Virus record (IMG/VR): IMGVR_UViG_3300015371_000013
Location: 16,502-80,501 of that record
From: a virus
DNA: 64,000 nucleotides
Direction: 5' to 3' (one strand)
Part shown: positions 3,001-58,460 of the stretch, piece after piece
Numbering within the stretch: position 1 is the first letter of the stretch
Layout: every line of letters begins with the position of its first letter
Notes under the pieces: model-generated
What the model was told of the DNA's origin: nothing
Seen by the model: only the letters and a program-made list of their open reading frames with translations
Database searches by the model: none
Made by a program: the position numbers and the translations under genes

Positions 3001-3005
3001 TCCAT
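1..3005 (-). CDS. Helicase-primase-exonuclease-DNA polymerase polyprotein-like ORF (3' end beyond window)
   Basis: I read 1001 codons without a stop from the ATG at 3005 (AGAAAGGAGAGTG just upstream) to the left edge, so the gene is truncated. Order of motifs: Walker A GPPGTGKST at residues 180-188, as in SF3/D5-type phage helicases; a PrimPol (AEP) core with VVIDFD at 499-503 and SGSGIHLHY around 538; a DnaQ-like exonuclease with FFDVEVYP (D708, E710), a GFYNRRFDN segment, and YCVNDVKAT (D846); then VLDVVSMHPT (D945), resembling motif A of family-B polymerases. The remaining polymerase motifs would lie outside the window. It should be the phage replication enzyme. The helicase lies before the primase, the reverse of the usual primase-helicase order. 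A strong in-frame internal start at 1217 could release the exonuclease-polymerase half separately. The domain identities are inferred from motifs; the open frame is seen directly. Confidence 0.85.
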   Translation of the reverse strand, partial: MDFIQILAREAKDKQLELYPDFVVGRSEDLMVQGGRFYAIWDPEKNLWSRDEYDVQRLVDEVLAQEKEKLQRETGQRYLVKFMRSFHSNSWAQFRKFMAHISDNSKPLDRNLTFANAEIKKSDYVSKMLPYAIGEGDISAWDELMSTLYSPDERAKIEWAIGSIIAGDSKKIQKFIVFYGPPGTGKSTVMNIINMLFEGYCTSFDGKALGSSNSAFATEVFKSNPLVAIQHDGDLSRIEENARLNSIIAHEQMTMNEKYKPAYSSRIDAMLFLGSNQPVRISDAKSGIIRRLIDVHPTGIKFGAKRYQTLMTQIGFELGAIAHHCLSVYLSMGKNYYNTYRPMEMMLQTDVFFNFIEAHYDVFKSQDYTTLKQAYFLYKTYCEESGINRPLPQYKMREELRNYFEEFKDRVEIDGELVRSVYRGFTADKFKAPTDDRTVFSLVLEEKVSLLDDFYADCPAQLANSEGMPTKRWANVETKLSDIDTRKIHYVKIPENHVVIDFDLKGQNGRKALERNLEAASQWPATYAEISRSGSGIHLHYIYTGDVSELSPVFAEGVEVKTYSGDASLRRKLSRCNRVPVAKISSGLPLRERKETMLKAKTIQSEQGLRELINRNLRKEIHPGTKPSIDFIKKILDDAYESGMKYDVTDLRSKIMAFANNSSNQAAACLRIVKDMKWASEETEESKEERFTAERSVEVTDDRLVFFDVEVYPNLFVVCWKFQGSPDVARMINPKPHDVAELFKFKLVGFYNRRFDNHILYAAAMGASNEELYRLTVKIIEGNRAATFAQAYNLSYADIWDFSTEKKSLKKFEIDLGILHMELDLPWDKPVDETNWGRVVEYCVNDVKATEAVFEARRGDYLARQILAELSGLTVNDTTQNHTARIIFGKDVKTAHKKFVYTDLSEQFPGYKFELGKSYYKGEEPGEGGYVYAEPGIYENVAVLDVVSMHPTTIKILNLFGPYTKNYAALTEARVAIKQEDYEKARFLLDGRLAKFLEGAE
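1215..1235 (-). promoter_or_regulatory. Internal ribosome binding site and in-frame start inside the replication ORF
   Basis: Minus strand reads GGAGAGAAAGGAAACG followed by ATG (1217). It is in frame with the upstream helicase-primase ORF, at residue 597, between the primase-like and exonuclease-polymerase parts. It looks like a normal gene start with the upstream stop codon lost, or a deliberate dual start. Confidence 0.55.
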
Positions 3006-3023
3006 CACTCTCCTTTCTGTTTA

Positions 3024-3164
3024 TTACTCGTCGTCGGGTTTCAGTGGCTCATAACTGAATCCGCGGTTCTCTTCGCGATGGATTCCCCACCACGCTATGA
3101 GAAAGCAGACTACGGCAATCAATAACACAGCCACTGCCGCGTATAACAAAGTGTCTTTACTCAT
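3024..3164 (-). CDS. 46-residue single-span membrane peptide
   Basis: Begins MSKDTLLYAAVAVLLIAVV and has one hydrophobic helix at about residues 6-26, then a charged tail rich in Asp and Glu. ATG at 3164 overlaps the stop of the zinc-binding-like gene upstream by 8 bases, and a GGAGG lies just before it, so it is translationally coupled. It precedes the replication ORF. Function unknown. Confidence 0.65.
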   Translation of the reverse strand: MSKDTLLYAAVAVLLIAVVCFLIAWWGIHREENRGFSYEPLKPDDE

Positions 3165-3360
3165 GGACCTCCGGTACATCGTCGCTGTAATATCTAAATC
3201 CCACTGTGGTTTCGGCGTGAGTACTTTCGGCTAGGTTACAGTGTTTGCACAACGACCACCATTCGCCCTTGGGCTCGAACGGATGATCGGTAGTAATAGA
3301 AGGAGTTTGATCGTGTAAGACTTCCTTAGGTCTTGCTTTTCGTGAATCTTCAATTGCCAT
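3157..3360 (-). CDS. Small zinc-finger-like phage protein
   Basis: 67 residues starting MAIEDSRK. I chose the ATG at 3360, which overlaps the TGA of the upstream gene and has CGGAG in front; an upstream TTG would only extend into the neighbour. The centre holds GEWWSLCKHCNLAESTH, with Cys-x2-Cys and a following His that could bind zinc. This compact motif recurs in many actinophage small proteins of unknown role. Overlaps on both sides place it in the same operon as the replication ORF. Confidence 0.7.
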   Translation of the reverse strand: MAIEDSRKARPKEVLHDQTPSITTDHPFEPKGEWWSLCKHCNLAESTHAETTVGFRYYSDDVPEVHE

Positions 3361-3907
3361 GTCGATGCTCCGGGTGAAGTTCTTCAATGAATGAATTCAT
3401 CTGATACCAGAGTTCGATACGAGTCTGATCGTCATCTGGCCAGGCCAAGGGGAAAAATCCACCTGTGCCGTCAGGCAAATATGTTCTCTCCATGGCAACC
3501 TGCATGATTTCCCCGGCTTTACGCTGCTTGGGTCTGGTAAATGGGTCTGATAGTCGGTTTAGCTCCAGGTTGGTCAAGAGCTCCCATGCCCAACCCGACG
3601 GTCGTCCTCCGGCGGCAAACCCCAATCGACGGGAAAGCCCGATCAGAACTTCCAGGAAAGACCCTGGACCCAGTTTCTCCATGTCACGATGACGAACCTG
3701 AAACTCGCGAGAAAATTCTGTCCGCAATTCCAGGCCGTCGGCAACTCGGTTGTCATCCAAGGGAACACTCCAAATAAATGGAGTATCAAACATGAAGTTG
3801 AGAAGTCCCCAATAGGTTTTTCCCTGACTTCCAGACTTATCATTGAGTTGGGGTTCCAACCAATGAAGGTATTCTTCTCTTACCTCCTCAATCGTCCTCC
3901 TGCTCAT
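3350..3907 (-). CDS. Conserved actinophage protein, 185 residues
   Basis: I recognise this as a conserved protein of actinobacterial phages by its pattern KTYWGLLNFMF, a DDNRV..G..LR.EF block, SFLEVLIGLSRRL, GWAWELL and a C-terminal GGFFPL..PDDDQ...ELWYQMN. No membrane segment and no catalytic motif I can name. It starts inside the end of the membrane protein upstream and its stop overlaps the next start, so it sits in a tightly coupled operon. Function unknown. Confidence 0.75.
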   Translation of the reverse strand: MSRRTIEEVREEYLHWLEPQLNDKSGSQGKTYWGLLNFMFDTPFIWSVPLDDNRVADGLELRTEFSREFQVRHRDMEKLGPGSFLEVLIGLSRRLGFAAGGRPSGWAWELLTNLELNRLSDPFTRPKQRKAGEIMQVAMERTYLPDGTGGFFPLAWPDDDQTRIELWYQMNSFIEELHPEHRHGN

Positions 3908-4781
3908 CTCTTTCCTTCATTCGCATCCTTTCCAGATTTCGGTAAGCTGGCGAATCGTGAGTGAATCCGTGAACCTCCTCGGCGAATTTGTTCGGAGATC
4001 TGATCACCTCATAGATGATCTCCACCTTGTCGTTACGAACATAGACGATGACAGGATCTCCTGAGCCATGACCGAAACGGAGCAGGTTGCCTTCGCCTAT
4101 CAACTCAGCACGATCGGTGTGGCCGATGACCTCATCGCGATCATTGCAGAGAACATCATCGCCTTCGTAATAGGTCACCGTGACCATGTCATAGCCTTCA
4201 GAAGCGTCGTCATACTTCTCGTCGACATGAATGACGTAGGGAATCTCCGGGGACCGGCTCTTGCGTTCCTCATGCCAGTCCCACTCAAATTCCTCTTCGA
4301 TCCCATCCTGGACGAATATGTTCTGAACTTCTGTGCTTTTGATCTCTGGCTCAACCCGAGGCGGCTGATCAGAGGGGTCATCGCTTTCGACCACTCGAGT
4401 CGGGGGCGGAACCGCCATGGGAGGCGGGGTTTCCTTCTCAGTTGGAGAATATCCCCGCTCTTTGACGATCTCCCCGACCGGACGTTTGGCTTCCTTGGCC
4501 TCAAGCGCCCGCGCCTTCTCCTGATAGTGGCGCCGCATCTCAGAAATCTCGTCGTCGGAAATCTTGGAGTACTTTGTCTCCGCTCGCGAATATGCGAACT
4601 TGTAAGCTACGAAGGCTCCCGTAGCCGCTCCTAGAAACCATCCTCCCACTGCGTAACTGATCTTGGCCCGATTGAGCGCTCGAATCGCCTGCTCGGCTAG
4701 TTCAGCCTGATCCGAGACTTCGCCCGCCACGTCAGCGGCAACGTTGATGACAGTCTCAGCGGCTTTATCCGCAGCACTCAT
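3888..4781 (-). CDS. Conserved single-span membrane protein with long soluble domain
   Basis: 297 residues; GGGGAGATCT precedes the ATG. One membrane segment around residues 40-62, a charged helix, a proline-rich linker (about 110-150), then a C-terminal domain with EVIGHTDRAELIGEGN, LLRFGHGSGDPVIVYVRN and a YEVIRS stretch near the end. That tail is shared by membrane proteins of many actinophages and usually accompanies the 185-residue protein and DUF6353 protein, as here. Topology (tail facing in or out) and role are not known. Confidence 0.7.
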   Translation of the reverse strand: MSAADKAAETVINVAADVAGEVSDQAELAEQAIRALNRAKISYAVGGWFLGAATGAFVAYKFAYSRAETKYSKISDDEISEMRRHYQEKARALEAKEAKRPVGEIVKERGYSPTEKETPPPMAVPPPTRVVESDDPSDQPPRVEPEIKSTEVQNIFVQDGIEEEFEWDWHEERKSRSPEIPYVIHVDEKYDDASEGYDMVTVTYYEGDDVLCNDRDEVIGHTDRAELIGEGNLLRFGHGSGDPVIVYVRNDKVEIIYEVIRSPNKFAEEVHGFTHDSPAYRNLERMRMKERDEQEDD

Positions 4782-5740
4782 AGATCTCCCCGCGCCTTTC
4801 GCTTGTCAATCAGATCCCAGATGGGGCCATCGACATTGAAGTCGAGAAGAATGGATCCCTCTCGACCGTTCATACCTCTGAAGAAATCGCTGCCATGTCC
4901 GTTCTCATCCCAACAACCGAAATCCACCCAGTTATCACCAGCGTGTTTCTCGTTATGTGGATCCCATACCCAGCCCACGATGGCTCCGGCTGAGGTATGT
5001 GACAATCCGATCATGGAATATACTTCATTGAGGAACAGATGGCCTCGGGAATGAAGCATGTCATTGGCCCAATTCTGCTGATCTCGCAACCACTTCCAAT
5101 TTCCGTAATCGAATGCTGGAGACTGGAAGTTAGGATTCTCCTCGTCGAACCAACGAGCATAGCCCGAGGGCTCGCCCGGCTCCACAATGACGGTATCGAC
5201 CGCCTTGCCGGTCTCCTCGTCGATGATGGTAACTTCCTCGGCCCCATATCGGAGCTCGCGATCGGTCTGTTCGCCATAGCGGTCGACCACTCGCTGTCGG
5301 TACATTCTGAAGGCATGGTCTACCGCGACATAGGCTGCCGTCAAAGCTGCGTTGCGATCCTTTAGGATTTGGTGAGACTTGGTCAAACAGACCAGTCCAA
5401 CCCCTCCGAGAATAACCGAGGGAGCATAGAGCTTGGCGATCTTGACTAGTCCCTTGGCCTTGATGATGCGGAGATCCTCTTCCATCTCTGCTTCGCTGTA
5501 CGTCGTACCTTCTCGAGCCTGGCCAGAGTCGACGTAAGCCTTGGCCTCGGCAGCCTTCTTCTTATTGGTTTCAATTTCGTCGAACACTTCTTCGAGTTGA
5601 AGGGTGGCTCGACAGGCCAGGACAGTGGAGCCCACCATGCTGACCACACCAGCGCCGAGCAAGATCGTCGGCGAATTCTTGCGAGCAACTAATACTTGCT
5701 CAGCGACCTTGCGACTGATCGCATGGGGGATGAATTTCAT
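4778..5740 (-). CDS. DUF6353 family phage membrane protein (copy 1)
   Basis: 320 residues. Two hydrophobic segments: SPTILLGAGVVSMVGSTVLACRA (about 23-45, with the family's GAGVV..GST.LA.RA pattern) and YAPSVILGGVGLVCL (about 105-122), separated by a charged helical stretch, then a soluble C-terminal domain with FLNEVYSMIGLSHTSAGAIVGW. I recognise the family from actinophages; function unknown. Overlaps the downstream membrane protein by 4 bases. A shorter relative lies at 11041-11850. Confidence 0.75.
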   Translation of the reverse strand: MKFIPHAISRKVAEQVLVARKNSPTILLGAGVVSMVGSTVLACRATLQLEEVFDEIETNKKKAAEAKAYVDSGQAREGTTYSEAEMEEDLRIIKAKGLVKIAKLYAPSVILGGVGLVCLTKSHQILKDRNAALTAAYVAVDHAFRMYRQRVVDRYGEQTDRELRYGAEEVTIIDEETGKAVDTVIVEPGEPSGYARWFDEENPNFQSPAFDYGNWKWLRDQQNWANDMLHSRGHLFLNEVYSMIGLSHTSAGAIVGWVWDPHNEKHAGDNWVDFGCWDENGHGSDFFRGMNGREGSILLDFNVDGPIWDLIDKRKARGDL

Positions 5741-6804: not shown

Positions 6805-6966
6805 CTACTTGCCAGCGTCCTTCATGGCGCGTCTAGCGACTTCCTGCTTCCAGGCCGCCGAGTTGATGAGCTTGCTTGCGGCGCCGAGCAGTGCAGCTGC
6901 GACTCCGAGAGCAAGAATGGGATTCTCTTCGGCCTGTTCCTTCAGGTTGTGGATAAACTTGTCCAT
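6805..6966 (-). CDS. 53-residue membrane-associated peptide
   Basis: Starts MDKFIHNLKEQAEE at the ATG with GGAGGAATCC in front, directly downstream of a TTCGCG/TATAAT promoter. A longer frame (GTG at 7074) would read through the promoter and is rejected. An amphipathic start is followed by a hydrophobic stretch (NPILALGVAAALLGAASKL) and a basic end. Monocistronic: own promoter and terminator. Function unknown. Confidence 0.7.
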   Translation of the reverse strand: MDKFIHNLKEQAEENPILALGVAAALLGAASKLINSAAWKQEVARRAMKDAGK

Positions 6967-6994
6967 GGATTCCTCCTGGATAGGGTAGCTTTTC

Positions 6995-7031: not shown

Positions 7032-7126
7032 AAAAAAGAAAGCCTGTGCGAGAATGAACTCTAAGGTTACTCACAGGTGTCTATCGCATTATTTCTCCAA
7101 AGCCTTGGATCGGCGGGCAATAGCAC
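7032..7126 (-). ncRNA. Candidate short RNA or two-codon minigene with own promoter and terminator
   Basis: The promoter at 7133-7158 and a terminator (CCTGTG...CACAGG, then six T at 7032-7037) bracket about 95 bases with no normal ORF. Inside is a well-spaced GGAG AAATA ATG CGA TAG, that is a start codon, one Arg codon and a stop. Either this is a noncoding RNA or a two-codon minigene. The RNA ends are inferred from the signals only. Confidence 0.5.
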
Positions 7127-7132
7127 TCTTTC

Positions 7133-7205: not shown

Positions 7206-7487
7206 TTACTTCTCCTGCTTGTCGTTCTTCTTAGCTTGGCGATTGTTCCACTTCTCGGTGAGGAAGTCGGCGGTCTTGTCGACGGCGATATCGGTGAGAC
7301 TGCCGCAGGCGTTACTTACGCCCCAGCCAACGATACCCGCTCCGATCTTGACGATCATGGCGTCCTTCTCGAAATTGGTGTTGTTGGCTGTGGTGTTGGT
7401 AACAACTTCGGCCGTCTTGATAGCGACGATCGACCTAGCGACCCACTTCGCAATGTTGCGAGCGGTGAAATCAGTAGGATCCAGCAT
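7206..7487 (-). CDS. 93-residue small protein with hydrophobic patch
   Basis: Start MLDPTDFTARNIAKW at 7487, preceded by AGGAG and a promoter whose -10 box ends 32 bases upstream; longer frames would start upstream of the promoter. A hydrophobic stretch around residues 47-60 (AMIVKIGAGIVGWGV) and a Lys/Gln-rich tail. No family recognised. Confidence 0.7.
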   Translation of the reverse strand: MLDPTDFTARNIAKWVARSIVAIKTAEVVTNTTANNTNFEKDAMIVKIGAGIVGWGVSNACGSLTDIAVDKTADFLTEKWNNRQAKKNDKQEK

Positions 7488-7518
7488 AGAATTACTCCTA
7501 GTTTGGGGTTTGGTTCTC

Positions 7519-7855: not shown

Positions 7856-7963
7856 CTATCGCCAGGACCATAGAATGGCAAAGAATATAAGGCACAGCCC
7901 CACCAGCATGATGGCCAGTACCTCACCTGGGCCCAGGCAGAGTCCAAGCCATTTGCAGAGCAT
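7856..7963 (-). CDS. 35-residue membrane peptide
   Basis: MLCKWLGLCLGPGEVLAIML, then a continuous hydrophobic stretch ending WSWR. AAAGGAC lies 6 bases before the ATG. One predicted membrane span. Coupled to the 75-residue gene downstream. Confidence 0.6.
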   Translation of the reverse strand: MLCKWLGLCLGPGEVLAIMLVGLCLIFFAILWSWR

Positions 7964-11040: not shown

Positions 11041-11850
11041 CTAGTAGTGCTTTGGGATGTAGTCCGGCTTGGGGAGTACCTGGAAGTCGATTGACAGACA
11101 AGGTCTTCCGTCTGGAGATGTAACCGTATCGTACTTGAGCTCCAGAAGCTCATCGGTGTTCCACCCCATATCGTCGGTCCATGAGGTGGCGGGCATTCCG
11201 AGACGCTCGTAGAAGGCGGTAGCATTGACCCAACCTCGATCGTTGAGGATCTCGGCGTTGGTGTCGTTGACTGCCTTCTTGATCTTCTCCATGGTGCTAT
11301 GGAAATATCGTCCGGTCGGCTCATCAAAACAGAGAACCTCTCCCTCGACCACGACGATTTTCTGATAGCCGTCGGTTCGATTCACCCGATCCTGAGAAAT
11401 CTCCGCCTCGATGGATTGCTTCTTCGGACCGGTGAGCTTCTCGGAGACCTTCTCCTTGTACTCCGAGAGATTGCGTTCAGCCAGACCATAGGCCGCCGCC
11501 AAAGCTGCCGCTTTCTGAGCCGACATGCGATGGGAGAATATGATGGCACTGATCGTGAGACCTCCGGTGACGACAGGAGGCACGAACTGCGGCCAGACCA
11601 GCTTGATCTTCTGAGACGGGCTGAGTCCCATGGTGGCATTGCTTTCACCATCGATGACGTCGGTCACGCCTTCGGGATGAATATGCTCGAGCTCCTTCTC
11701 GCGGATGATCTCCGCGGCTTTAAAGCCAGCTCGGCCGGTGAGGACTGCGGTGGCAACTGTGCCAACAACACCTCCCGCGGTGAGCAGAACGGTCGCGTTC
11801 TCAGAAACGAACTGGGCGCCCTTCTGCTTTACTGCATCAAGAAACTGCAC
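11041..11850 (-). CDS. DUF6353 family phage membrane protein (copy 2)
   Basis: About 269 residues from the GTG at 11850 (AAAGG 9 bases upstream); the longer ATG at 11922 lies inside the promoter -10 box and cannot be used. Two hydrophobic segments (TVLLTAGGVVGTVATAVLTG and PQFVPPVVTGGLTISAII), an AAALAAAYGLAERNL helix, and a C-terminal domain with ATAFYERLGMPATSW..DMGW. It matches the layout of the protein at 4778-5740 but is shorter in the linker. A terminator-like hairpin separates it from its promoter. Confidence 0.7.
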   Translation of the reverse strand: MQFLDAVKQKGAQFVSENATVLLTAGGVVGTVATAVLTGRAGFKAAEIIREKELEHIHPEGVTDVIDGESNATMGLSPSQKIKLVWPQFVPPVVTGGLTISAIIFSHRMSAQKAAALAAAYGLAERNLSEYKEKVSEKLTGPKKQSIEAEISQDRVNRTDGYQKIVVVEGEVLCFDEPTGRYFHSTMEKIKKAVNDTNAEILNDRGWVNATAFYERLGMPATSWTDDMGWNTDELLELKYDTVTSPDGRPCLSIDFQVLPKPDYIPKHY

Positions 11851-11887
11851 TCTCCTAGGCCTTTCTCGAACTTGGGTGGACGAAAAG

Positions 11888-11919
11888 AAAAAGAGATTCC
11901 GAATCAACGGATCTCTCTT
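11888..11919 (-). terminator. Terminator-like hairpin between promoter and the DUF6353 gene
   Basis: AGAGATCCG-TTGATT-CGG-A-ATCTCT then TTTTTC, beginning right after the -10 box of the promoter at 11921. It may attenuate the DUF6353 gene, or end transcripts coming from 12-15 kb. Confidence 0.65.
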
Positions 11920-11920
11920 C

Positions 11921-11946
11921 ATTATAGGGGATGTTTTTCCCGCGAA
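11921..11946 (-). promoter_or_regulatory. Phage promoter, TTCGCG-type, before the DUF6353 copy 2
   Basis: TATAAT at 11921-11926 and TTCGCG at 11941-11946, 14 bases apart. Confidence 0.8.
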
Positions 11947-13083: not shown

Positions 13084-13163
13084 AAAAAAGAGAGAGAAGG
13101 GAATCTATCCAATTCAATGGCGTATTCCTTTGCAAGCCAACAGTCAGTTGGCTCTTCTCTCTC
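13084..13163 (-). ncRNA. Closed-stem leader RNA ending in a terminator
   Basis: Directly after the -10 box the minus strand reads GAGAGAGAAG, then two inner hairpins (GCCAAC/GTTGGC and GGAAT/ATTCC), then CTTCTCTCTC and six T. The two ends pair perfectly over 10 bases. If transcription starts 6-7 bases past the -10 box, only the inner half of the 5' arm is in the RNA. It lies between the promoter and the 68-residue gene. Confidence 0.6.
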
Positions 13164-13596: not shown

Positions 13597-13684
13597 AAAA
13601 AAGAGAGACCCATCTCCTCCTGCTGTCGTAGCATGGCTTCGTTGGCAGGTCGCGTAGCATAGCTTCGCTGTGGAGATAGGTCTC
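13597..13684 (-). ncRNA. Closed-stem RNA with duplicated 15-base motif and terminator
   Basis: Ends GAGACC-TATCTCC and GGAGAT-GGGTCTC pair, followed by six T. Between them CGAAGCYATGCTACG occurs twice (13653-13667 and 13627-13641, one mismatch). It ends just before the gene at 13571, so it may be both an RNA and an attenuator. No ORF. Confidence 0.6.
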
Positions 13685-13695
13685 AAAATATAAAG

Positions 13696-13812
13696 AAACC
13701 CCAGCACATTGCTCTACCTGGGCGCAATGCACTAGATAGAGTTAGGTGGGCACTCGAGGTACTTTTTACACCGTAGCCTGAGCGCAATGCATCAGACTAA
13801 CTGCTGGGGTTT
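13696..13812 (-). ncRNA. Promoter-driven closed-stem RNA with duplicated 17-base motif
   Basis: Starts right after a TATAAT promoter; AAACCCCAGCA at the 5' side pairs with TGCTGGGGTTT at the 3' side. Inside, TGCATTGCGCYCAGG recurs twice (13774-13791 and 13715-13731). No ORF with a ribosome site. A T-rich stretch (TTTCTTTATATTTT) follows, then the second closed-stem RNA. Confidence 0.65.
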
Positions 13813-13813
13813 C

Positions 13814-13839
13814 ATTATACCACGGGTTTTCTACGCGAA
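13814..13839 (-). promoter_or_regulatory. Phage promoter, TTCGCG-type, for the paired closed-stem RNAs
   Basis: TATAAT at 13814-13819, TTCGCG at 13834-13839. It overlaps the end of the 135-residue gene. Confidence 0.8.
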
Positions 13840-14238
13840 TACGGAATTCGGCAAAGCCGCAAACCGTTCTTGTAACCCGTGAATATCCTGAGCAATCTCA
13901 CGAGCGTTTTTGCCAACAACGGCTGCAGCTCGATTGATGCTCGGATAAGGTTCGCCAGTCAGCTTGTCCAAAACAGGAATTGGCTCACGACAAGCTCTTT
14001 TTACGAGGGCTATCTGGGTGATCTTGGGCTTCCAGATAATCAACGCCGTATTCTTTGCTTTCTGCTGTATCTCAAGCGGCAAACCGTTGAGACGAAGTAG
14101 AATGGTGGTCGCAGTGACAGAAGAGCCCACCGCGAGACATCCTGCGCCGACGAGATACACCTTCTTGTTCTCCTGCAGATGCTGCTTAACCCGCTCGATC
14201 TTGGTACGATCGTCCTGCTTTTCTCCTTCCTGACTCAT
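13831..14238 (-). CDS. Membrane-anchored protein with C-terminal helical domain (copy 1)
   Basis: 135 residues. Basic helix KQHLQENKKVYLVGAGCLAV leads into one span; the C-terminal part (TGEPYPSINRAAAVVGKNARE then HGLQERFA) resembles the modular DNA-binding (NUMOD-like) helices of homing endonucleases. The protein at 17824-18204 has the same N-terminus and layout. ATG overlaps the upstream TGA. Confidence 0.65.
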   Translation of the reverse strand: MSQEGEKQDDRTKIERVKQHLQENKKVYLVGAGCLAVGSSVTATTILLRLNGLPLEIQQKAKNTALIIWKPKITQIALVKRACREPIPVLDKLTGEPYPSINRAAAVVGKNAREIAQDIHGLQERFAALPNSVFA

Positions 14239-14421: not shown

Positions 14422-14484
14422 AAAAAATGAAAGAGATCACAATTTCGAATATGCGATTACAGGAGCCTTTCTCCTTCTCTTTCA
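14422..14484 (-). ncRNA. Closed-stem leader RNA with terminator
   Basis: TGAAAGAGA after the -10 box pairs with TCTCTTTCA, followed by six T; an inner AGGAG-AAAGG-CTCCT hairpin is included. Same plan as at 13084-13163: promoter, closed stem, terminator, small gene. Confidence 0.6.
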
Positions 14485-16047: not shown

Positions 16048-16520
16048 GGGGTAATCCTCGTCATACACAGACTGATTCCACTCTGGGTACTCATGTAGCG
16101 CGCATCAGGCCAGATTCCCTTGCGATGAAGATCCAGCCGGTCGGCGTCCCAACAGGTGGCGATAGTGGGATTGATCGCTCTTTGACCAGAGCTATGCTCC
16201 ACACAGGCCTCGAACAGTAGTTCTATTTGCTCATCGAAAATATAGCGATGGAGATGCTCTTGCGTCTTGTAGAAGCGTTCCCACAATCGATACCCTCGAT
16301 TTCCATGATCAGGATCTTTACCATCGTTTACCCGCATGGAGTCGTGAAATAAAGCGTACAACGCCACAACTTCCATGTCGGCGCCGGTTTCATACCCGTT
16401 TAGCATCTGAGCGTTCTGCCAGACCCTAAACCAATGGTCAAGACCATGGAGTCGACTCTGGAGAACGTTCAGGGTTATAGACTCGCCCAAGACAAAGGGA
16501 ACGCAATGACTGGCGAGCAT
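16044..16520 (-). CDS. HD-domain phosphohydrolase-like protein
   Basis: 158 residues. HGLDHWFRVW (about 26-35) supplies the first His, ALYALFHDSMR (about 54-64) the His-Asp pair, and CWDADRLDL (about 123-131) the late Asp, matching the H..HD..D metal site of HD phosphohydrolases. A small version of the fold, likely acting on nucleotides; substrate unknown. Possible roles are nucleotide metabolism during infection or removal of a signalling nucleotide. Confidence 0.7.
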   Translation of the reverse strand: MLASHCVPFVLGESITLNVLQSRLHGLDHWFRVWQNAQMLNGYETGADMEVVALYALFHDSMRVNDGKDPDHGNRGYRLWERFYKTQEHLHRYIFDEQIELLFEACVEHSSGQRAINPTIATCWDADRLDLHRKGIWPDARYMSTQSGISLCMTRITP

Positions 16521-17436: not shown

Positions 17437-17643
17437 CTACGACTTGTTGAGCTTGGCGGTCTCGAGGTTGAGCTTGGCGGTCTCGAGCTGCATCTGGTTC
17501 ACCTTGAGGCCTGCGTACACGGACGCGCCGGTCAGAGCCACGGGAATGACGATCCACGCGGTCATGATGGCGGCATCCTTGATGCGCTGCTTCTTGGTGG
17601 GCTTGGGCGGCTCGACGACCTTGGGGGTCTCGGGCTCGGACAT
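17437..17643 (-). CDS. 68-residue membrane peptide with repeated tail
   Basis: MSEPETPKVVEPPKPTKKQR, one span (IMTAWIVIPVALTGASVYAG), then a tail in which LETAKLN occurs twice. AAAGGAGTGTTGC before the ATG; promoter directly upstream and terminator after: a single-gene unit. Confidence 0.7.
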   Translation of the reverse strand: MSEPETPKVVEPPKPTKKQRIKDAAIMTAWIVIPVALTGASVYAGLKVNQMQLETAKLNLETAKLNKS

Positions 17644-17668
17644 GCAACACTCCTTTTGTAGTGGTTTC

Positions 17669-17694: not shown

Positions 17695-17797
17695 AGAAAA
17701 GAGAGAGCCACCTACCAACGACTTATAGAAGTTGGGATCCGACCCCCTTAAAGGGGATCTCGTCAAGGCGACTTAGAGAAGCCTAGATGACTCTCTC
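17690..17797 (-). ncRNA. Promoter-driven closed-stem RNA with duplicated 13-base motif
   Basis: GAGAGAGTCA after the -10 box pairs with TGGCTCTCTC, followed by TTTTCTTT. Between lie CTTCTMTAAGTCG twice (17769-17781 and 17719-17731) and a central GATCCCC-TTTAA-GGGGGTC hairpin. No ORF. It has its own promoter and is followed by the promoter of another gene, so it stands alone. Confidence 0.7.
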
Positions 17798-17823: not shown

Positions 17824-18204
17824 TTATATGGTGATACGTTCGAAGTGCAACCCATTCGCATGCGGGTATTTACCGTTCAGATGCTGTGAAAGGTTAGTTT
17901 CCGAGATGCCCTTCGCCAAAGCGGCCTCTGCTTGGCTGCTCCACTTCTCCAGAGTTTCGAGACATCGTACTGGATTAGCCGGGTAATTGCGCTGGTTCAA
18001 ATACTTGATGACCACGTCGACATTCTTTGACTTATTGACTATCAGACCAATGTTGTCAGTACCATTGAACGTCTGAATTACATTGGGGCTTGACACCCCG
18101 CGCAGCAAATATCCCGCGGTAAGACATCCTGCACCAACCAAGTAAACCTTCTTGTTGTCCTTCAAATGCTGCTTGATCTTCTGATAACGCGTAGACTCTT
18201 CCAT
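17824..18204 (-). CDS. Membrane-anchored protein with C-terminal helical domain (copy 2)
   Basis: 126 residues. KIKQHLKDNKKVYLVGAGCL then a span; middle part QTFNGTDNIGLIVNKSKNVD; C-terminal CLETLEKWSSQAEAALAKGI then ETNLSQHLNGK..HANGLHFERI, a helix-turn-helix-like module seen in a family of actinophage membrane proteins. Paralogue of 13831-14238. AAGGAAATC before ATG; no promoter of its own after the terminator at 18229. Confidence 0.7.
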   Translation of the reverse strand: MEESTRYQKIKQHLKDNKKVYLVGAGCLTAGYLLRGVSSPNVIQTFNGTDNIGLIVNKSKNVDVVIKYLNQRNYPANPVRCLETLEKWSSQAEAALAKGISETNLSQHLNGKYPHANGLHFERITI

Positions 18205-18228: not shown

Positions 18229-18256
18229 AAAAAGGAAAGCCCCTTTTCGGGGCTCG
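18229..18256 (-). terminator. Terminator after the 53-residue gene
   Basis: GAGCCCC-GAAA-AGGGGCTTTCC then six T; a GNRA-like loop on a strong stem. Confidence 0.9.
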
Positions 18257-18259
18257 CCT

Positions 18260-18421
18260 TTAGGCGTAGATCTGAACGACGCCGGGGACGAGGGTGGTCT
18301 CAGCCAGCTTGGCCTGGGACTTGGTGATCATTCGCTCGTACTTGTACACCGCACGGATAGTGCGGAGAACGTTGACGTTTGCGTTGATCTCGGTCTTAAC
18401 GGCCTTGATGGGATGGAACAT
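18260..18421 (-). CDS. 53-residue helical protein
   Basis: MFHPIKAVKTEINANVNVLR then TIRAVYKYERMITKSQAK..., a mostly helical soluble peptide without Cys or span. AAAGGAGACCATT before the ATG; promoter and terminator of its own. Confidence 0.65.
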   Translation of the reverse strand: MFHPIKAVKTEINANVNVLRTIRAVYKYERMITKSQAKLAETTLVPGVVQIYA

Positions 18422-18450
18422 AATGGTCTCCTTTGGTGGTTTAGGTCTTC

Positions 18451-18476
18451 ATTATGTACCATGTTTTTCACGCGAA
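18451..18476 (-). promoter_or_regulatory. Phage promoter, TTCGCG-type, for the 53-residue gene
   Basis: CATAAT at 18451-18456 and TTCGCG at 18471-18476, adjoining the upstream terminator's T-run. Confidence 0.8.
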
Positions 18477-18504
18477 AAAGGAAAGCCCGTGCGGACTCTC
18501 CTTA
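18476..18504 (-). terminator. Terminator after the 65-residue gene
   Basis: GGAGAGTCC-GCAC-GGGCTTTCC then five T that run into TTCGCG. Confidence 0.85.
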
Positions 18505-18508
18505 GAAA

Positions 18509-18706
18509 TTACTTCACCTGGTTGGAAGCTGCCTTGAGGGTTTCGAGGACGATCCTCTTGTCGAGCATCTTGTACGAGATGAATGAGTTGGCGACTGCGG
18601 TAGCACAGTAGATGGAAAAGCATCCGAGTACTAGCTTTTGGCTGCCAGTCATCATCATGATACGAGACCTCCTAAGAGGCTCACGGGTTTCGTTTGACTC
18701 GGGCAT
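18509..18706 (-). CDS. 65-residue membrane peptide with two possible starts
   Basis: The ATG at 18706 has AGGAG 4 bases upstream; a second in-frame set of ATGs (MMMTGSQK, around residue 17) has AGGAGG 9 bases upstream, so 65- and 49-residue forms are both plausible. One span (LVLGCFSIYCATAVANSFIS). Own promoter and terminator. Confidence 0.65.
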   Translation of the reverse strand: MPESNETREPLRRSRIMMMTGSQKLVLGCFSIYCATAVANSFISYKMLDKRIVLETLKAASNQVK

Positions 18707-18733
18707 AACTCTCCTAGAGTTGATAGTGGTTTC

Positions 18734-18759
18734 ATTATAGCCTGTGAAAAGTATGCGAA
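18734..18759 (-). promoter_or_regulatory. Phage promoter, TTCGCG-type, for the 65-residue gene
   Basis: TATAAT at 18734-18739; TTCGCA at 18754-18759. Confidence 0.8.
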
Positions 18760-18790
18760 AAACTGAAAGCCCGGGTTAGGGGCTCTCAGT
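18757..18790 (-). terminator. Terminator after the 45-residue gene
   Basis: CTGAGAGCCC-CTAAC-CCGGGCTTTCAG, then TTTTTCGCA: the U-tract is continuous with the promoter box. Confidence 0.85.
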
Positions 18791-18794
18791 TTGA

Positions 18795-18932
18795 TTAGCT
18801 GCTCTTCTTCGAAAGCAGATGATCGGCGATGACGATTGAACTCGTTGCCAGCGTAAGCCACGCACTGGCCCGAGTGGCCCGATGGGCGTGGGGGGCGGTG
18901 ACGTGGATGACGGCGGCGAGCTTGTTCTTCAT
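18795..18932 (-). CDS. 45-residue membrane peptide
   Basis: MKNKLAAVIHVTAPHAHRAT, His-rich, then a moderately hydrophobic stretch (AWLTLATSSIVIADHLL). AAGGAGATTTGCC before ATG. Single-gene unit. Confidence 0.6.
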   Translation of the reverse strand: MKNKLAAVIHVTAPHAHRATRASAWLTLATSSIVIADHLLSKKSS

Positions 18933-18967
18933 GGCAAATCTCCTTCTGATAAGAGGGTTTACTTTTC

Positions 18968-18993
18968 ATTAGAAGCTATGAAATATCCGCGAA
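18968..18993 (-). promoter_or_regulatory. Phage promoter, TTCGCG-type, for the 45-residue gene
   Basis: TCTAAT at 18968-18973 and TTCGCG at 18988-18993. Confidence 0.75.
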
Positions 18994-19024
18994 AAACCTA
19001 GAGACCGGGTTAGGGTCTCAGGGT
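18990..19024 (-). terminator. Terminator after the 63-residue gene
   Basis: ACCCTGAGACC-CTAACCC-GGTCTCTAGGT then TTTTTCGCG. Confidence 0.85.
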
Positions 19025-19030
19025 TTTGAA

Positions 19031-19222
19031 CTAGAACTTACGGGCGATGATGACTTGGGAGTTCGGCTCGAGTGCGGCCAGAGCATCGACATGTTCCTGG
19101 ATGCGGCGCTGACGCTCCTGCTCTTCCCCAGCTGCAGCGAATGCAGTGAGGGTGAACAGAGCGGCGCCACCCAGGGCCTTGCCGGTGTTGCGGGCGTACT
19201 TCTTGGCGGTTTCCTTGGTCAT
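19031..19222 (-). CDS. 63-residue membrane-associated peptide
   Basis: MTKETAKKYARNTGKALGGA then ALFTLTAFAAA, a short hydrophobic stretch, and a charged helix (EEQERQRRIQEHVDALAAL). Start has AAAGGAGAAAAACC upstream. Own promoter and terminator. Confidence 0.65.
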   Translation of the reverse strand: MTKETAKKYARNTGKALGGAALFTLTAFAAAGEEQERQRRIQEHVDALAALEPNSQVIIARKF

Positions 19223-19255
19223 GGTTTTTCTCCTTTTGAGTTTGATTTAGTTCTC

Positions 19256-19281
19256 ATTATAAGACATGAAAATTACGCGAA
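19256..19281 (-). promoter_or_regulatory. Phage promoter, TTCGCG-type, for the 63-residue gene
   Basis: TATAAT at 19256-19261, TTCGCG at 19276-19281. Confidence 0.8.
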
Positions 19282-19318
19282 AAAAGAAAGAAAGAGAATC
19301 CGATGCGGACTCCCTTCT
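19278..19318 (-). terminator. Terminator after the 43-residue gene
   Basis: GGGAGTCCG-CAT-CGGATTCTC stem, a T/C-rich run and TTTTTT continuing into TTCGCG. Confidence 0.8.
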
Positions 19319-19322
19319 TGAT

Positions 19323-19454
19323 TTAGACCTGCGAGGTGTACTGGTGACCAACGTCTTGTAGACTGGCGTACACGTCCATTGCAAATATGCTTCCCATCGC
19401 GAGGATGGTGAGCAGGATTACAACGAACATGAGGCGTCCGAGGGACAGGGTCAT
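19323..19454 (-). CDS. 43-residue membrane peptide
   Basis: MTLSLGRLMFVVILLTILAM then GSIFAMDVYASLQDV: one N-terminal span. AAGGAGATACCTC before the ATG. Single-gene unit. Confidence 0.65.
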   Translation of the reverse strand: MTLSLGRLMFVVILLTILAMGSIFAMDVYASLQDVGHQYTSQV

Positions 19455-19483
19455 GAGGTATCTCCTTGTTTAGGTTTGGTTTC

Positions 19484-19509
19484 ATTATACTCCATGAAAT
19501 ATGCGCGAA
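19484..19509 (-). promoter_or_regulatory. Phage promoter, TTCGCG-type, for the 43-residue gene
   Basis: TATAAT at 19484-19489, TTCGCG at 19504-19509, spacer CATATTTCATGGAG. Confidence 0.85.
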
Positions 19510-19538
19510 AAAGGAAAGCCCGTGCGGACTCTCCTGTT
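19507..19538 (-). terminator. Terminator after the 72-residue gene
   Basis: GGAGAGTCC-GCAC-GGGCTTTCC then TTTTTCGCG, nearly identical to the one at 18476-18504. Confidence 0.85.
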
Positions 19539-19542
19539 GAGG

Positions 19543-19761
19543 TTACTTCTTGGGGTTAATGTTCTCGACAGCGCGCCTGGCGGAAGTGAGAGCGATCTGC
19601 TCCTCGAGGTACATGATGCGGGCATTGACCTTGTTGGTGTGGCTCTCGCTAGCGGCAGGGCTAGCGGAAAGCTGCCAACGAGTCATTTCGGCATTCAGGT
19701 ACTCGAGGATGGCATCAAGCTTCTCAACTTCTGTAATAGGCTTACGGGTCTTGAAAAACAT
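19543..19761 (-). CDS. 72-residue coiled-coil-like soluble peptide
   Basis: MFFKTRKPITEVEKLDAILE...AEMTRWQLSASPAASESHTN, then MYLEEQIALTSARRAVENI. Two helices, no span. Own promoter and terminator; AAGGAGTCAAC before the ATG. Confidence 0.65.
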   Translation of the reverse strand: MFFKTRKPITEVEKLDAILEYLNAEMTRWQLSASPAASESHTNKVNARIMYLEEQIALTSARRAVENINPKK

Positions 19762-19784
19762 GTTGACTCCTTGATAGTGGTTTC

Positions 19785-19810
19785 ACTATAATCCATGAAA
19801 TATGCGCGAA
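19785..19810 (-). promoter_or_regulatory. Phage promoter, TTCGCG-type, for the 72-residue gene
   Basis: TATAGT at 19785-19790, TTCGCG at 19805-19810. Confidence 0.8.
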
Positions 19811-19836
19811 AAAGGAAAGCCTGGGTAGGCTCTCCT
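19808..19836 (-). terminator. Terminator after the 58-residue gene
   Basis: GGAGAGCCT-ACCC-AGGCTTTCC, then TTTTTCGCG: the clearest example of the fused terminator-promoter unit. Confidence 0.9.
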
Positions 19837-19842
19837 GTGAAA

Positions 19843-20019
19843 CTAATTGTTCTGCTGGGAAACGTCGGCTTCGAACTTGCGCTTATTTCGGCGGTCCAGA
19901 TAGTTGACGAATCCGATACCCACGACGATCAGAGTAGCGTTGAGGGCAACGTACTGAACGGGGTGACTACGAATCCAGTCGTACTGGACCTCCTGAGACT
20001 TGCGGTAAAGCTTGAACAT
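19843..20019 (-). CDS. 58-residue membrane peptide
   Basis: Start MFKLYRKSQEVQYDWIRSHP at 20019 (GGAGAACTCCA before ATG); the ATG at 20061 lies within the promoter and is rejected. One span (VALNATLIVVGIGFVNYL), then a basic tail. Confidence 0.65.
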   Translation of the reverse strand: MFKLYRKSQEVQYDWIRSHPVQYVALNATLIVVGIGFVNYLDRRNKRKFEADVSQQNN

Positions 20020-20049
20020 TGGAGTTCTCCAGTGTAGAGGTTTGGTTTC

Positions 20050-20075
20050 ATTATAACCCATGAAATATGCGCGTA
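20050..20075 (-). promoter_or_regulatory. Phage promoter, TTCGCG-type, for the 58-residue gene
   Basis: TATAAT at 20050-20055 and TACGCG at 20070-20075. Confidence 0.8.
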
Positions 20076-20107
20076 AAAAAAGAGAAGCCGGGTTAGGACT
20101 CCTCTCT
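20074..20107 (-). terminator. Terminator after the 77-residue gene
   Basis: AGAGAGGAGTCC-TAACCC-GGCTTCTCT followed by seven T. Confidence 0.8.
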
Positions 20108-20113
20108 AACGAT

Positions 20114-20347
20114 CTAATCGATGGGAATCAGGTCGTAGTGAAATCGCGGAAAGCCGATACGTCTCATCTGGAAACGATAACGACCGGGCGGCACGGTGCG
20201 GAAATCTCCGTCCTGACACATGTTCATGAAAGTTCCGTGAAGAATCTTTTCTTTTTGTGTCGGGTCAGAGGTGACATAGGCAACGTGGGCCACATCGTCG
20301 TCGTTTATAGTGACGAGAATATAGGGTTTTGACGATTTTCGAAACAT
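20114..20347 (-). CDS. 77-residue soluble protein
   Basis: MFRKSSKPYILVTINDDDVA, a beta-rich pattern without a span, ending RIGFPRFHYDLIPID. AAAGGAACATC before the ATG. Single-gene unit; not recognised. Confidence 0.65.
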   Translation of the reverse strand: MFRKSSKPYILVTINDDDVAHVAYVTSDPTQKEKILHGTFMNMCQDGDFRTVPPGRYRFQMRRIGFPRFHYDLIPID

Positions 20348-20370
20348 GATGTTCCTTTCGGGTAGGTGTC

Positions 20371-20396
20371 ATTATAAGCTGTGAAATGTTCGCGAA
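20371..20396 (-). promoter_or_regulatory. Phage promoter, TTCGCG-type, for the 77-residue gene
   Basis: TATAAT at 20371-20376, TTCGCG at 20391-20396. Confidence 0.85.
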
Positions 20397-20428
20397 AAAA
20401 GAAAGTCCCGGATTGAGACTCTCTTTTT
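20395..20428 (-). terminator. Terminator after the 82-residue gene
   Basis: AAAGAGAGTCTC-AATCC-GGGACTTTCTTT then TTTTTCGCG. Confidence 0.8.
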
Positions 20429-20434
20429 GACTAC

Positions 20435-20683
20435 TTACACGACAGGACTCGCTTCGTTGAGGACGAAGATGTTGAGGCGATCAGAAGTCCACTTGAGAGC
20501 ATCTCCTGGATTGTCCAGCAGCTTCTGGAGATTCTCAGGGCTGACCGAGAGGAACAGATCGCTGGTGTTGTTGGACATCAGGCGATGTGCTCCTACGGCT
20601 CCTGCAATAACTCCAGCACCGTAGACGATGACAGTGTGATGCTTCCGATAGAACTTCTTAGCACGTTGGTACTTGTCGTTCAC
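20435..20683 (-). CDS. 82-residue membrane protein, GTG start
   Basis: Start VNDKYQRAKKFYRKHHTVIV at the GTG at 20683, with AAAGGAG 8 bases upstream; the upstream ATG sits at the promoter. One span with a Gly/Ala face (VIVYGAGVIAGAVGAHRL), then a soluble tail. The GAG..AG.. span resembles the two NKKVYLVGAG proteins. Confidence 0.65.
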   Translation of the reverse strand: MNDKYQRAKKFYRKHHTVIVYGAGVIAGAVGAHRLMSNNTSDLFLSVSPENLQKLLDNPGDALKWTSDRLNIFVLNEASPVV

Positions 20684-20711
20684 GAAATACTCCTTTGAGT
20701 AGTAGGTTGTC

Positions 20712-20737
20712 ACTATACCCCATGAAATATGTGCGAA
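20712..20737 (-). promoter_or_regulatory. Phage promoter, TTCGCG-type, for the 82-residue gene
   Basis: TATAGT at 20712-20717, TTCGCA at 20732-20737. Confidence 0.8.
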
Positions 20738-20774
20738 GACAAAAAGAGAAGCCGCGTTAGGGCTCCTCTCTTTG
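20734..20774 (-). terminator. Terminator after the 73-residue gene
   Basis: AGAGAGGAGCCC-TAACGC-GGCTTCTCT then TTTTTGTC, a few bases from the next promoter box. Confidence 0.8.
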
Positions 20775-20777
20775 AGA

Positions 20778-20999
20778 CTACTTCACCATGTAGATGGCGT
20801 AGCCGTGTCCAACGACTTTGACACTCATCTCGAACAGGTCATCGTGGTCAATGATCCTGTGGTTTGTGGTATCGGTGGGGCCATCGATCTCGAAGACGAA
20901 CCAGGTATGTTCTTCTTCAATCTCGGGACGGACGCCACCGTTCAGAACCTGGATCAAATCCAGAGTGTTCTGTTCGATGGGAATGGCGTATGTGGACAC
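20778..20999 (-). CDS. 73-residue soluble protein, GTG start
   Basis: VSTYAIPIEQNTLDLIQVLN, then HTWFVFEIDGPTDTTNHR and an acidic stretch, ending GHGYAIYMVK. AAAGGAGGATTTTC before the GTG. Looks like a compact alpha/beta protein. Single-gene unit. Confidence 0.65.
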   Translation of the reverse strand: MSTYAIPIEQNTLDLIQVLNGGVRPEIEEEHTWFVFEIDGPTDTTNHRIIDHDDLFEMSVKVVGHGYAIYMVK

Positions 21000-21029
21000 G
21001 AAAATCCTCCTTTGGTTAGGTGTGGTTTC

Positions 21030-21055
21030 ACTATAAACCATGAAATATACGCGCC
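21030..21055 (-). promoter_or_regulatory. Phage promoter, TTCGCG-type (weak box), for the 73-residue gene
   Basis: TATAGT at 21030-21035 and GGCGCG at 21050-21055; a perfect palindrome lies immediately upstream. Confidence 0.75.
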
Positions 21056-21058
21056 AGT

Positions 21059-21071
21059 ATTTACAGTAAAT
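21059..21071. promoter_or_regulatory. Perfect palindrome next to a promoter, operator-like
   Basis: ATTTAC-T-GTAAAT (minus strand), ending 4 bases from the promoter box. CAGATACTG nearby partly repeats the flank CAGTATTTAC. It is the only copy of the 20 promoters with such a site. Possible repressor or activator site. Confidence 0.4.
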
Positions 21072-21137
21072 GCGAGTCAGTATCTGGACTTTTCACCAAA
21101 ATTACCCCCCGGGAATTTTTTGATAGTGAAAAAAAGA

Positions 21138-21175
21138 GAGGCTGTGTTTTTCACACGAACCTCTCTCTTCGATAA
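21138..21175 (-). terminator. Terminator after the 116-residue gene
   Basis: AGAGAGG..TGTG-AAAAA-CACA..CCTCTCT followed by seven T. The ~60 bases between it and the palindrome hold no gene. Confidence 0.85.
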
Positions 21176-21194: not shown

Positions 21195-21545
21195 TTACGA
21201 TCGAGGCTTCATCACGAAGCCAAGCGCGGATCTGCTTCTGATCACATGTTCGCGCTCGTAGCGGGCCAACCAGAGGATCCCGAAGATATTGGCGGCGACG
21301 ACAAGCACGGTGTCCGGGCTGATCTGCTTGCTGAATCCGAATCGTCGTTCATCCGCCAGTTCCTGCTCTTGTTTTTTCAGTTTGGCGGTCTGTTCGACTT
21401 CTTCGATCTTCAGTTTGTGCAGCTCGGAAATATGCTTGACAATCGATGCGTATTCCTCGGAGGTCTTCGCATGGTTTGGCAGCTCTTTGAGGGCGGCTTG
21501 GATCTCAGCATCGAGCTTGGTCTCGATTTGAGTCTTGATAAACAA
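21195..21545 (-). CDS. 116-residue coiled-coil membrane protein, TTG start
   Basis: TTG at 21545 with AAAGGAGAGTAA upstream. A long charged helix (about 1-70) is followed by SPDTVLVVAANIFGILWLAR (about 75-95), one span, and RYEREHVIRSRSALGF at the C-terminus. The pattern (helix, PDT.L.V.ANI.GIL, then a short basic tail) is a conserved actinophage family of unknown function. Confidence 0.7.
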   Translation of the reverse strand: MFIKTQIETKLDAEIQAALKELPNHAKTSEEYASIVKHISELHKLKIEEVEQTAKLKKQEQELADERRFGFSKQISPDTVLVVAANIFGILWLARYEREHVIRSRSALGFVMKPRS

Positions 21546-21569
21546 TTACTCTCCTTTGATAGGGTTGTC

Positions 21570-21595
21570 ATTATAGGCTGTGTATCAGCCGCGAA
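21570..21595 (-). promoter_or_regulatory. Phage promoter, TTCGCG-type, most upstream copy
   Basis: TATAAT at 21570-21575, TTCGCG at 21590-21595, just downstream of the late operon's last gene. It marks the late/early boundary. Confidence 0.8.
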
Positions 21596-58415: not shown

Positions 58416-58460
58416 CAGCTCCACCCTTTCCCATTGGTTACGAGCACAAAAATGACGTGT

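Follow-up and report, generated by a model that had tools for sequence, protein, structure and literature searches.

The 64,000-nucleotide window analysed here (positions 16502–80501 of the 80,501-base virus record IMGVR_UViG_3300015371_000013) carries on its minus strand an array of ten tiny genes, which we describe in window coordinates and in the direction of transcription. Our explanation is that the array consists of moron-like, self-contained units, which would be exchanged through copies of a common promoter and read by an RNA polymerase encoded by the phage itself; judged from sequence, we give this explanation as a whole a probability of about 0.6. A unit would comprise a promoter, a short leader, one tiny gene or structured RNA, and a terminator, with units placed end to end so that each terminator touches the next promoter. 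Because every unit begins with a nearly identical 28-bp promoter, units could be exchanged by recombination: crossing over between promoter copies would add, remove, duplicate or relocate whole units and leave their neighbours unharmed. This route is what we infer, whereas the junctions themselves can be seen in relatives. The promoter is most likely read by a QDE-1/YonO-like polymerase of the phage with a C-terminal helix-turn-helix (HTH) resembling sigma region 4; the G that immediately follows TATAAT is the probable start of transcription, and a copy of this promoter would also precede the operon of the polymerase. Two elements go beyond the sequence-only reading of this DNA that preceded our analysis: cassettes with no open reading frame (ORF) that hold a structured RNA, and the tie between the motif and a phage-encoded RNA polymerase.

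The best matches of the tape measure protein are in Arthrobacter, Curtobacterium, and Gordonia phages, and the window therefore belongs to an actinophage-type tailed phage. Direct DNA comparison with the public phage set revealed no close relative and no similarity at the DNA level. Along the minus strand, structural genes are followed by the tiny-gene region and then by DNA metabolism, an order matched by Gordonia phage Vardy.

Anatomy of the array and its promoter motif

Ten ORFs of 43–82 codons occupy 21.0–18.3 kb, from the promoter with +1 at 21029 to that with +1 at 18450, in agreement with the row of about ten genes announced by the sequence-only reading. Each has its own promoter-like motif, a leader of 23–35 nt and a start with a Shine-Dalgarno sequence. 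At nine successive junctions, upstream of the +1 positions 20711, 20370, 20049, 19784, 19483, 19255, 18967, 18733, and 18450, a hairpin and its U-tract directly abut TTCGCG, the order being hairpin, U-tract, TTCGCG, TATAAT, leader, ribosome site. That the terminator U-tract runs into the next promoter had been proposed from the letters alone, with GGCTTTCC-TTTTTCGCG quoted as the example, and this sequence is indeed present. The 60–80 bases then allotted to the space between genes were an underestimate, as the measured stop-to-start distance is 81–100 nt. The junction at 21.05–21.17 kb is unfused (about 195 nt), and gene 17824–18204 follows a terminator but has no motif of its own. Fold z-scores of the terminators range from −2.0 to −4.9, against −0.26 ± 1.14 for random 50-mers. 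Terminator and private promoter together would give each gene its own short transcript; this fits the anatomy, but terminators may leak, and gene 17824–18204 lacks a motif.

The motif reads TTCGCG-N7-CA-N5-TATAATGA, and a near-identical 28-bp copy starts each unit. With a position weight matrix (PWM) built from the array in the window, 22 copies scoring 26–50 bits were found in the 80.5-kb record, all of them on the minus (coding) strand. Among 20 Markov-shuffled genomes, 17 had no site above 11 bits and three had one, and an exact-pattern search allowing 3 mismatches gave 11 matches with 0 expected. Coincidental repeats were rejected on these two counts. No PWM copy lies in the 42 kb of structural genes, where the best score is 4.5. 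The motif contains the TATAAT-type −10 hexamer of host sigma-A promoters; a TTGACA-like −35 hexamer is absent 16–18 nt upstream, where the group consensuses have CGCR or TTTA instead. A generic sigma-70 scan consequently showed no excess (9 sites with 10.3 expected), because the motif has no TTGACA box.

Ahead of the array, a promoter at 21568–21595 (+1 at 21569, PWM 40.1) would drive an ORF of 116 aa (21195–21545) whose family is common to the loci L004, a member of the window's group, and L006. The row proper starts with a 73-aa gene at 20778–20999 (+1 at 21029). Its terminator at 20740–20774 (fold z −3.4), fused to the promoter with +1 at 20711, leads to an 82-aa gene with a hydrophobic stretch (20435–20683), and the terminator at 20396–20428 (z −3.8, +1 at 20370) to a 77-aa gene (20114–20347). 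After the terminator at 20079–20107 (z −2.0, +1 at 20049) comes a 58-aa gene, again with a hydrophobic stretch (19843–20019), and after that at 19813–19836 (z −4.6, +1 at 19784) a 72-aa gene with a homologue in L008 (19543–19761). The next terminator (19512–19535, z −2.9, +1 at 19483) touches the top-scoring promoter copy, TTCGCGCATATTTCATGGAGTATAATGA, at 19482–19509 (PWM 50.5), which precedes a strongly hydrophobic 43-aa gene (19323–19454, maxKD19 2.64). The terminator at 19288–19319 (z −3.7, +1 at 19255) introduces a 63-aa gene (19031–19222), and that at 18993–19027 (z −4.0, +1 at 18967) a 45-aa gene (18795–18932). The last two genes of the row, of 65 aa (18509–18706) and 53 aa (18260–18421), follow the terminators at 18760–18792 (z −4.9, +1 at 18733) and 18479–18503 (z −2.8, +1 at 18450), respectively; the 53-aa gene has homologues in L004 (64%) and L006. 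Beyond it, a terminator at 18237–18255 precedes the motif-less gene, and a promoter with +1 at 17668 serves a 68-aa gene (17437–17643) with homologues in L004 and L007. A scan with the protein of just one of the tiny genes yielded a single relative.

Three of these terminators, then placed at 18476, 19507, and 19808, had been called near-identical. This holds for the first two, which have an identical run of about 30 nt in common; the third differs at five positions and retains the stem (GAGAGTCC/GGGCTTTC versus GAGAGCCT/AGGCTTTC).

Exchange of whole cassettes among relatives

The idea that a cassette can be copied as a unit, and that related phages should swap genes at the cassette borders, was part of the sequence-only reading and is borne out by close relatives. 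Seven Arthrobacter phages that are 89–97% identical in this region were compared, with Niktson as the reference. Relative to Niktson, there are two extra single genes in Teacup and one or two in each of Synepsis, Nightmare, and Breylor17. At the first Teacup insertion, the Niktson-like block on one side reaches 7939 and that on the other begins at 7915, so that they overlap on the promoter core at 7907–7933. The other clean junctions (8632|8583 in Teacup and 8946|8896 in Breylor17) also overlap on a motif core, and in all three events the inserted gene is flanked by a promoter copy on both sides. The junction in Nightmare lies 34 nt from a motif core. A formal chance test is weak, with three clean events and a probability of 0.10 that a random point falls in a core; despite this, the printed sequences at the three clean junctions are clear. 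The g11 cassette (METRKSKIK...; L146, L148, L149, L150) stands after g4 in Teacup and after g2 in Synepsis, Nightmare, and Breylor17, and its presence in two slots of closely related phages is a traceable relocation.

Similar differences are found in other groups. Among Gordonia phages, Untouchable has one gene more than Vardy, with the junction just upstream of a motif, and in Figliar gene 39 is replaced between two motifs. In the window's own group, L004 and the window share the cassettes 21569, 19255, 18450, and 17668. Their order is unchanged, but the cassettes that separate them are different and non-homologous; the genes at 18795–18932 and 18509–18706 are missing from the corresponding place in L004. 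The 19255 cassettes are 86% identical, and the similarity is bounded by the leader on one side and the terminator on the other: it reaches the U-tract of the terminator at 18993–19027, and the sequences diverge beyond. L008 carries three paralogous cassettes in tandem.

RNA cassettes, the phage polymerase and competing explanations

Behind most motifs a small ORF begins after 23–35 nt, but several motifs are followed by an ORF-less structured RNA. In these cassettes, the arm directly before the T-tract pairs with the bases that immediately follow TATAAT (17797, 14483, 13813, and 13163, and a very short one at 11920). The RNA at 17701–17797 is 97 nt long and closed by GAGAGAGTCATCTA/TAGGTGGCTCTCTC, and its tail TTTTC is followed by the next promoter. 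Further RNA cassettes lie at 14429–14483 (closed by GAAAGAGA/TCTCTTTC), at 13695–13813 (closed by GAAACCCCAGCA/TGCTGGGGTTTC; it contains an internal repeat and is followed by a second hairpin element at 13684–13605) and at 13090–13163 (closed by GAGAGAGAAG/CTTCTCTCTC), all on the minus strand. At 11888–11920 a short hairpin and T-tract follow the promoter immediately. The RNA at 7038–7132 (+1 at 7132) is a probable member, its closing pairs being recognized by eye and in the minimum free energy fold but not called by the automatic stem test. Searches of the first 30 kb of the window against Rfam, with E up to 1, gave nothing convincing.

RNA units also occur elsewhere. In Rhodococcus phage ReqiPepy6, one motif copy stands before a tRNA that ARAGORN detects, and in Lactococcus phage P092 two copies precede tRNA-like RNAs closed like the other RNA cassettes. 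One RNA type recurs in nine records (in transcription orientation at L006:5889, L008:2142, L014:14322, L018:2164, L047:7747, L049:2339, L055:3334, L076:1840, and L093:3842), with two alignable helices and compensatory changes in 8 of 13 pairs. It matched no Rfam family when eight motif loci were searched, the sole match there being one ordinary tRNA. Separately, RNA cassettes resembling degenerate tRNAs, with a GGTTCGA T-arm inside the outer closing stem, were noticed at L141:2352, L144:1846, L011:8945, and L135:8606 and 8994; ARAGORN called no tRNA in L141, L011, or L135.

Across 654 motif sites, closing stems of at least 8 bp were found at 50, compared with 11 when the 5' parts were swapped between sites. 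Counted from the base that follows TATAAT, 41 of the 50 stems begin at a position from −3 to 0, and almost none near +7; starts at −3 to −1 look like A/T pairs that run into the U-tract. The closing stems thus suggest, though indirectly, that RNA starts at the G next to TATAAT, unlike the situation at sigma-70 promoters, where it starts 6–8 nt beyond the −10 hexamer.

The candidate reader is a 959-residue protein encoded in the left flank outside the window (minus strand, positions 561–3440 of the record, L005), which matches phrog_4291 with 1112 bits. Its relatives are present in 250 public phage records, where they are labelled RNA-dependent RNA polymerase, HTH DNA-binding protein, excise, tail fiber, or hypothetical protein. 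The DxDGD catalytic motif is present as DFDGD at residue 545 and is invariant among relatives. A C-terminal HTH is found in all nine aligned phage enzymes and is lacking in YonO; there is also a weak Sigma70_r4_2 match. Searching the PDB by sequence gave no match with the protein alone and only spurious helical or HTH matches with a profile, so that a fold comparison was needed. For the predicted model of a relative that is about 70% identical (L153), itself of moderate quality, the best PDB match by Foldseek is QDE-1 (E 2.4e-6), followed with weak E-values by large subunits of multi-subunit (cellular) RNA polymerases. The protein is classed here as a QDE-1/YonO-like single-chain RNA polymerase with a predicted two-barrel fold.

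Motif and enzyme occur together widely. The window PWM finds, on the coding strand, 8 copies in Gordonia phage Vardy, 11 in a Streptomyces phage, 10 and 12 in Arthrobacter phages, 6 in a Curtobacterium phage and 16 in a Rhodococcus phage, and the motif is present in every sampled actinophage group that has the enzyme. Lactococcus phage P092 carries a variant that retains the core TTTTACA-N5-TATAATGA but has TTTA in place of CGCR. A pattern search of IMG/VR retrieved at least 120 stretches with the motif, and none with the reversed pattern; 38 of the motif-bearing contigs are at least 37 kb long, and the enzyme is encoded in 35 of these. Conversely, in most loci fetched by the enzyme alone, the operon starts with a motif copy, about 0.9 kb ahead of the polymerase gene; in the record that contains the window, a weak copy lies 986 nt upstream. 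On these grounds we think it rather probable that the motif is the promoter of the QDE-1/YonO-like polymerase.

Several observations weigh against this assignment. Three motif-bearing records lack the full enzyme; to judge by where the array lies and how long the records are, two of them probably end before its expected place. In Faecalibacterium phage FP_oengus the enzyme is present, but there is only a weak motif copy (6.8 bits) upstream of its gene. The L153 model reaches a predicted template modelling (pTM) score of only 0.46 and its TM-scores to QDE-1 are low, the PWM was trained on the window, and TATAAT is also the host sigma-A box. Finally, enzyme and motif may travel together through the shared ancestry of these phages. 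Motif arrays were not found in FP_oengus, in SPbeta (25 kb read), or in phiC31; the last, a phage with a sigma factor gene of its own, showed no motif site.

In one alternative, the link to the polymerase would be common descent only, and the host sigma-A RNA polymerase would read the motif with the help of a phage activator bound at CGCR, a box some 14 nt ahead of TATAAT. Such an arrangement would resemble that of T4 MotA, a phage activator at middle promoters. A perfect TATAAT with no TTGACA at sigma-A spacing would suit an upstream activator box, and small DNA-binding proteins are annotated in these phages. We nevertheless regard it as rather unlikely: the RNA cassettes have closing stems that begin with the base following TATAAT instead of at +7, the motif is conserved between actinobacterial and Lactococcus phages sharing this polymerase, and no candidate activator was identified. 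It is much less credible that the region is transcribed as one long polycistronic message, with the hairpins acting as processing or stabilizing elements and the motif as a minor internal promoter or some other signal. Leaky terminators, and a gene (17824–18204) that follows a terminator and has no motif, would agree with such a message, but nine successive U-tract hairpins are each followed at once by a full motif, which moreover precedes lone RNA units and tRNAs and accompanies single-gene insertions. Least plausible of all is a layout produced by repeated independent selection of the same signals around unrelated genes, with no copying of units. The cassette proteins of the window show no mutual similarity detectable at E 0.01, as this would lead one to expect, but insertions in near-identical phages consist of a complete unit with a promoter at both ends, the g11 cassette occupies two slots, and the 19255 cassette is common to two phages from leader to terminator only.

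Known systems and further features of the window

The units recall the morons of tailed phages. These are single coding units, each with a promoter and a terminator at its flanks, that sit as insertions between genes adjacent in related phages, and their acquisition has been called mysterious (PMC4378225). As in morons, each gene of the array appears to have its own promoter and terminator, with nine fused junctions, and genes are present or absent between adjacent genes (Teacup, Nightmare, and Breylor17 versus Niktson; Untouchable versus Vardy). Unlike morons, the units here form a continuous array with near-identical promoters, fused terminators, junctions at the promoter and some RNA units, and the phages are not known to be temperate. 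The interest of the comparison is that the junctions left by acquisition are readable here, within the shared promoter.

In Vardy (cluster DJ), a 50-bp intergenic motif was reported in five copies (PMC9671010). Like the motif of the window, it lies after the tail genes, is intergenic and in one orientation, contains TATAAT, is associated with terminators, and precedes small genes, of which many are predicted to encode a transmembrane or signal sequence. That announcement does not connect the motif with a polymerase, with the exchange of cassettes, or with RNA cassettes. By contrast, the SAS/ESAS of cluster K mycobacteriophages (consensus GGGATAGGAGCCC, function unknown) precede many small non-structural genes, nearly all in one orientation, as does the motif here, but are located at the ribosome binding site and have no TATAAT core (PMC3203893).

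YonO of Bacillus phage SPbeta was reported to transcribe a single late operon, in a study that left the sequence of its promoter open (Forrest et al., 2017; PMC5467207). It is likewise a phage-encoded single-chain RNA polymerase with a DxDGD active site, but the enzymes considered here have a C-terminal HTH and would serve many separate small transcription units, and tblastn does not list SPbeta among their relatives. Most sampled phages with a relative of the enzyme carry a strong candidate for such a promoter, in 6–22 copies. In Thermus phage P23-45, conserved motifs upstream of start sites co-occur with phage-encoded two-barrel polymerases, as here; there, starts and occupancy were measured, the latter by chromatin immunoprecipitation sequencing (PMC10770324), whereas start sites and polymerase use are deduced in our case, and both the enzymes and the motif are different.

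The moron layout (PMC4378225) and a repeated TATAAT motif at this place in Vardy (PMC9671010) were thus already known. In the open-access papers searched, we found no promoter for YonO-like enzymes, no link of the motif to the enzyme, no promoter-bounded exchange of single cassettes, and no RNA cassettes; relative to those papers, the motif–polymerase link, this exchange, and the RNA cassettes are new. The chances seem to us even that the motif represents the first promoter class identified for the large YonO/QDE-1-like family of phage polymerases, one recognized by built-in HTH segments with no sigma factor, starting at the G after TATAAT, and doubling as the homology through which cassettes of one gene or one RNA move between phages whose hosts differ widely. 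For expression work in actinobacteria, a compact polymerase that brings a promoter of its own and natural terminator–promoter junctions would be a useful tool.

Other features of the window may be mentioned. A second small array on the minus strand contains a 93-aa gene (7206–7487, +1 at 7518) and a 53-aa gene (6805–6966, +1 at 6994), both with a homologue in L019. Two paralogous small proteins (phrog_27818) with a common hydrophobic segment, VYLVGAGCL, are encoded at 17824–18204 and 13831–14238, one in each half of the small-gene region. Within their genes lies a 67-nt direct repeat (78%; 14121–14187 and 18108–18174), the longest here beyond promoters and terminators. A DUF6353 (phrog_2152) protein is also present twice, at 4778–5740 and 11041–11922. 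A 2208-residue protein with several Laminin_G_3 (concanavalin A-like) domains is encoded at 51798–58424, upstream of the terminase gene, and the gene adjoining the latter (49422–51773) encodes a protein of 783 residues that contains DUF7211 and whose N-terminus weakly resembles a 2'-5' RNA ligase.

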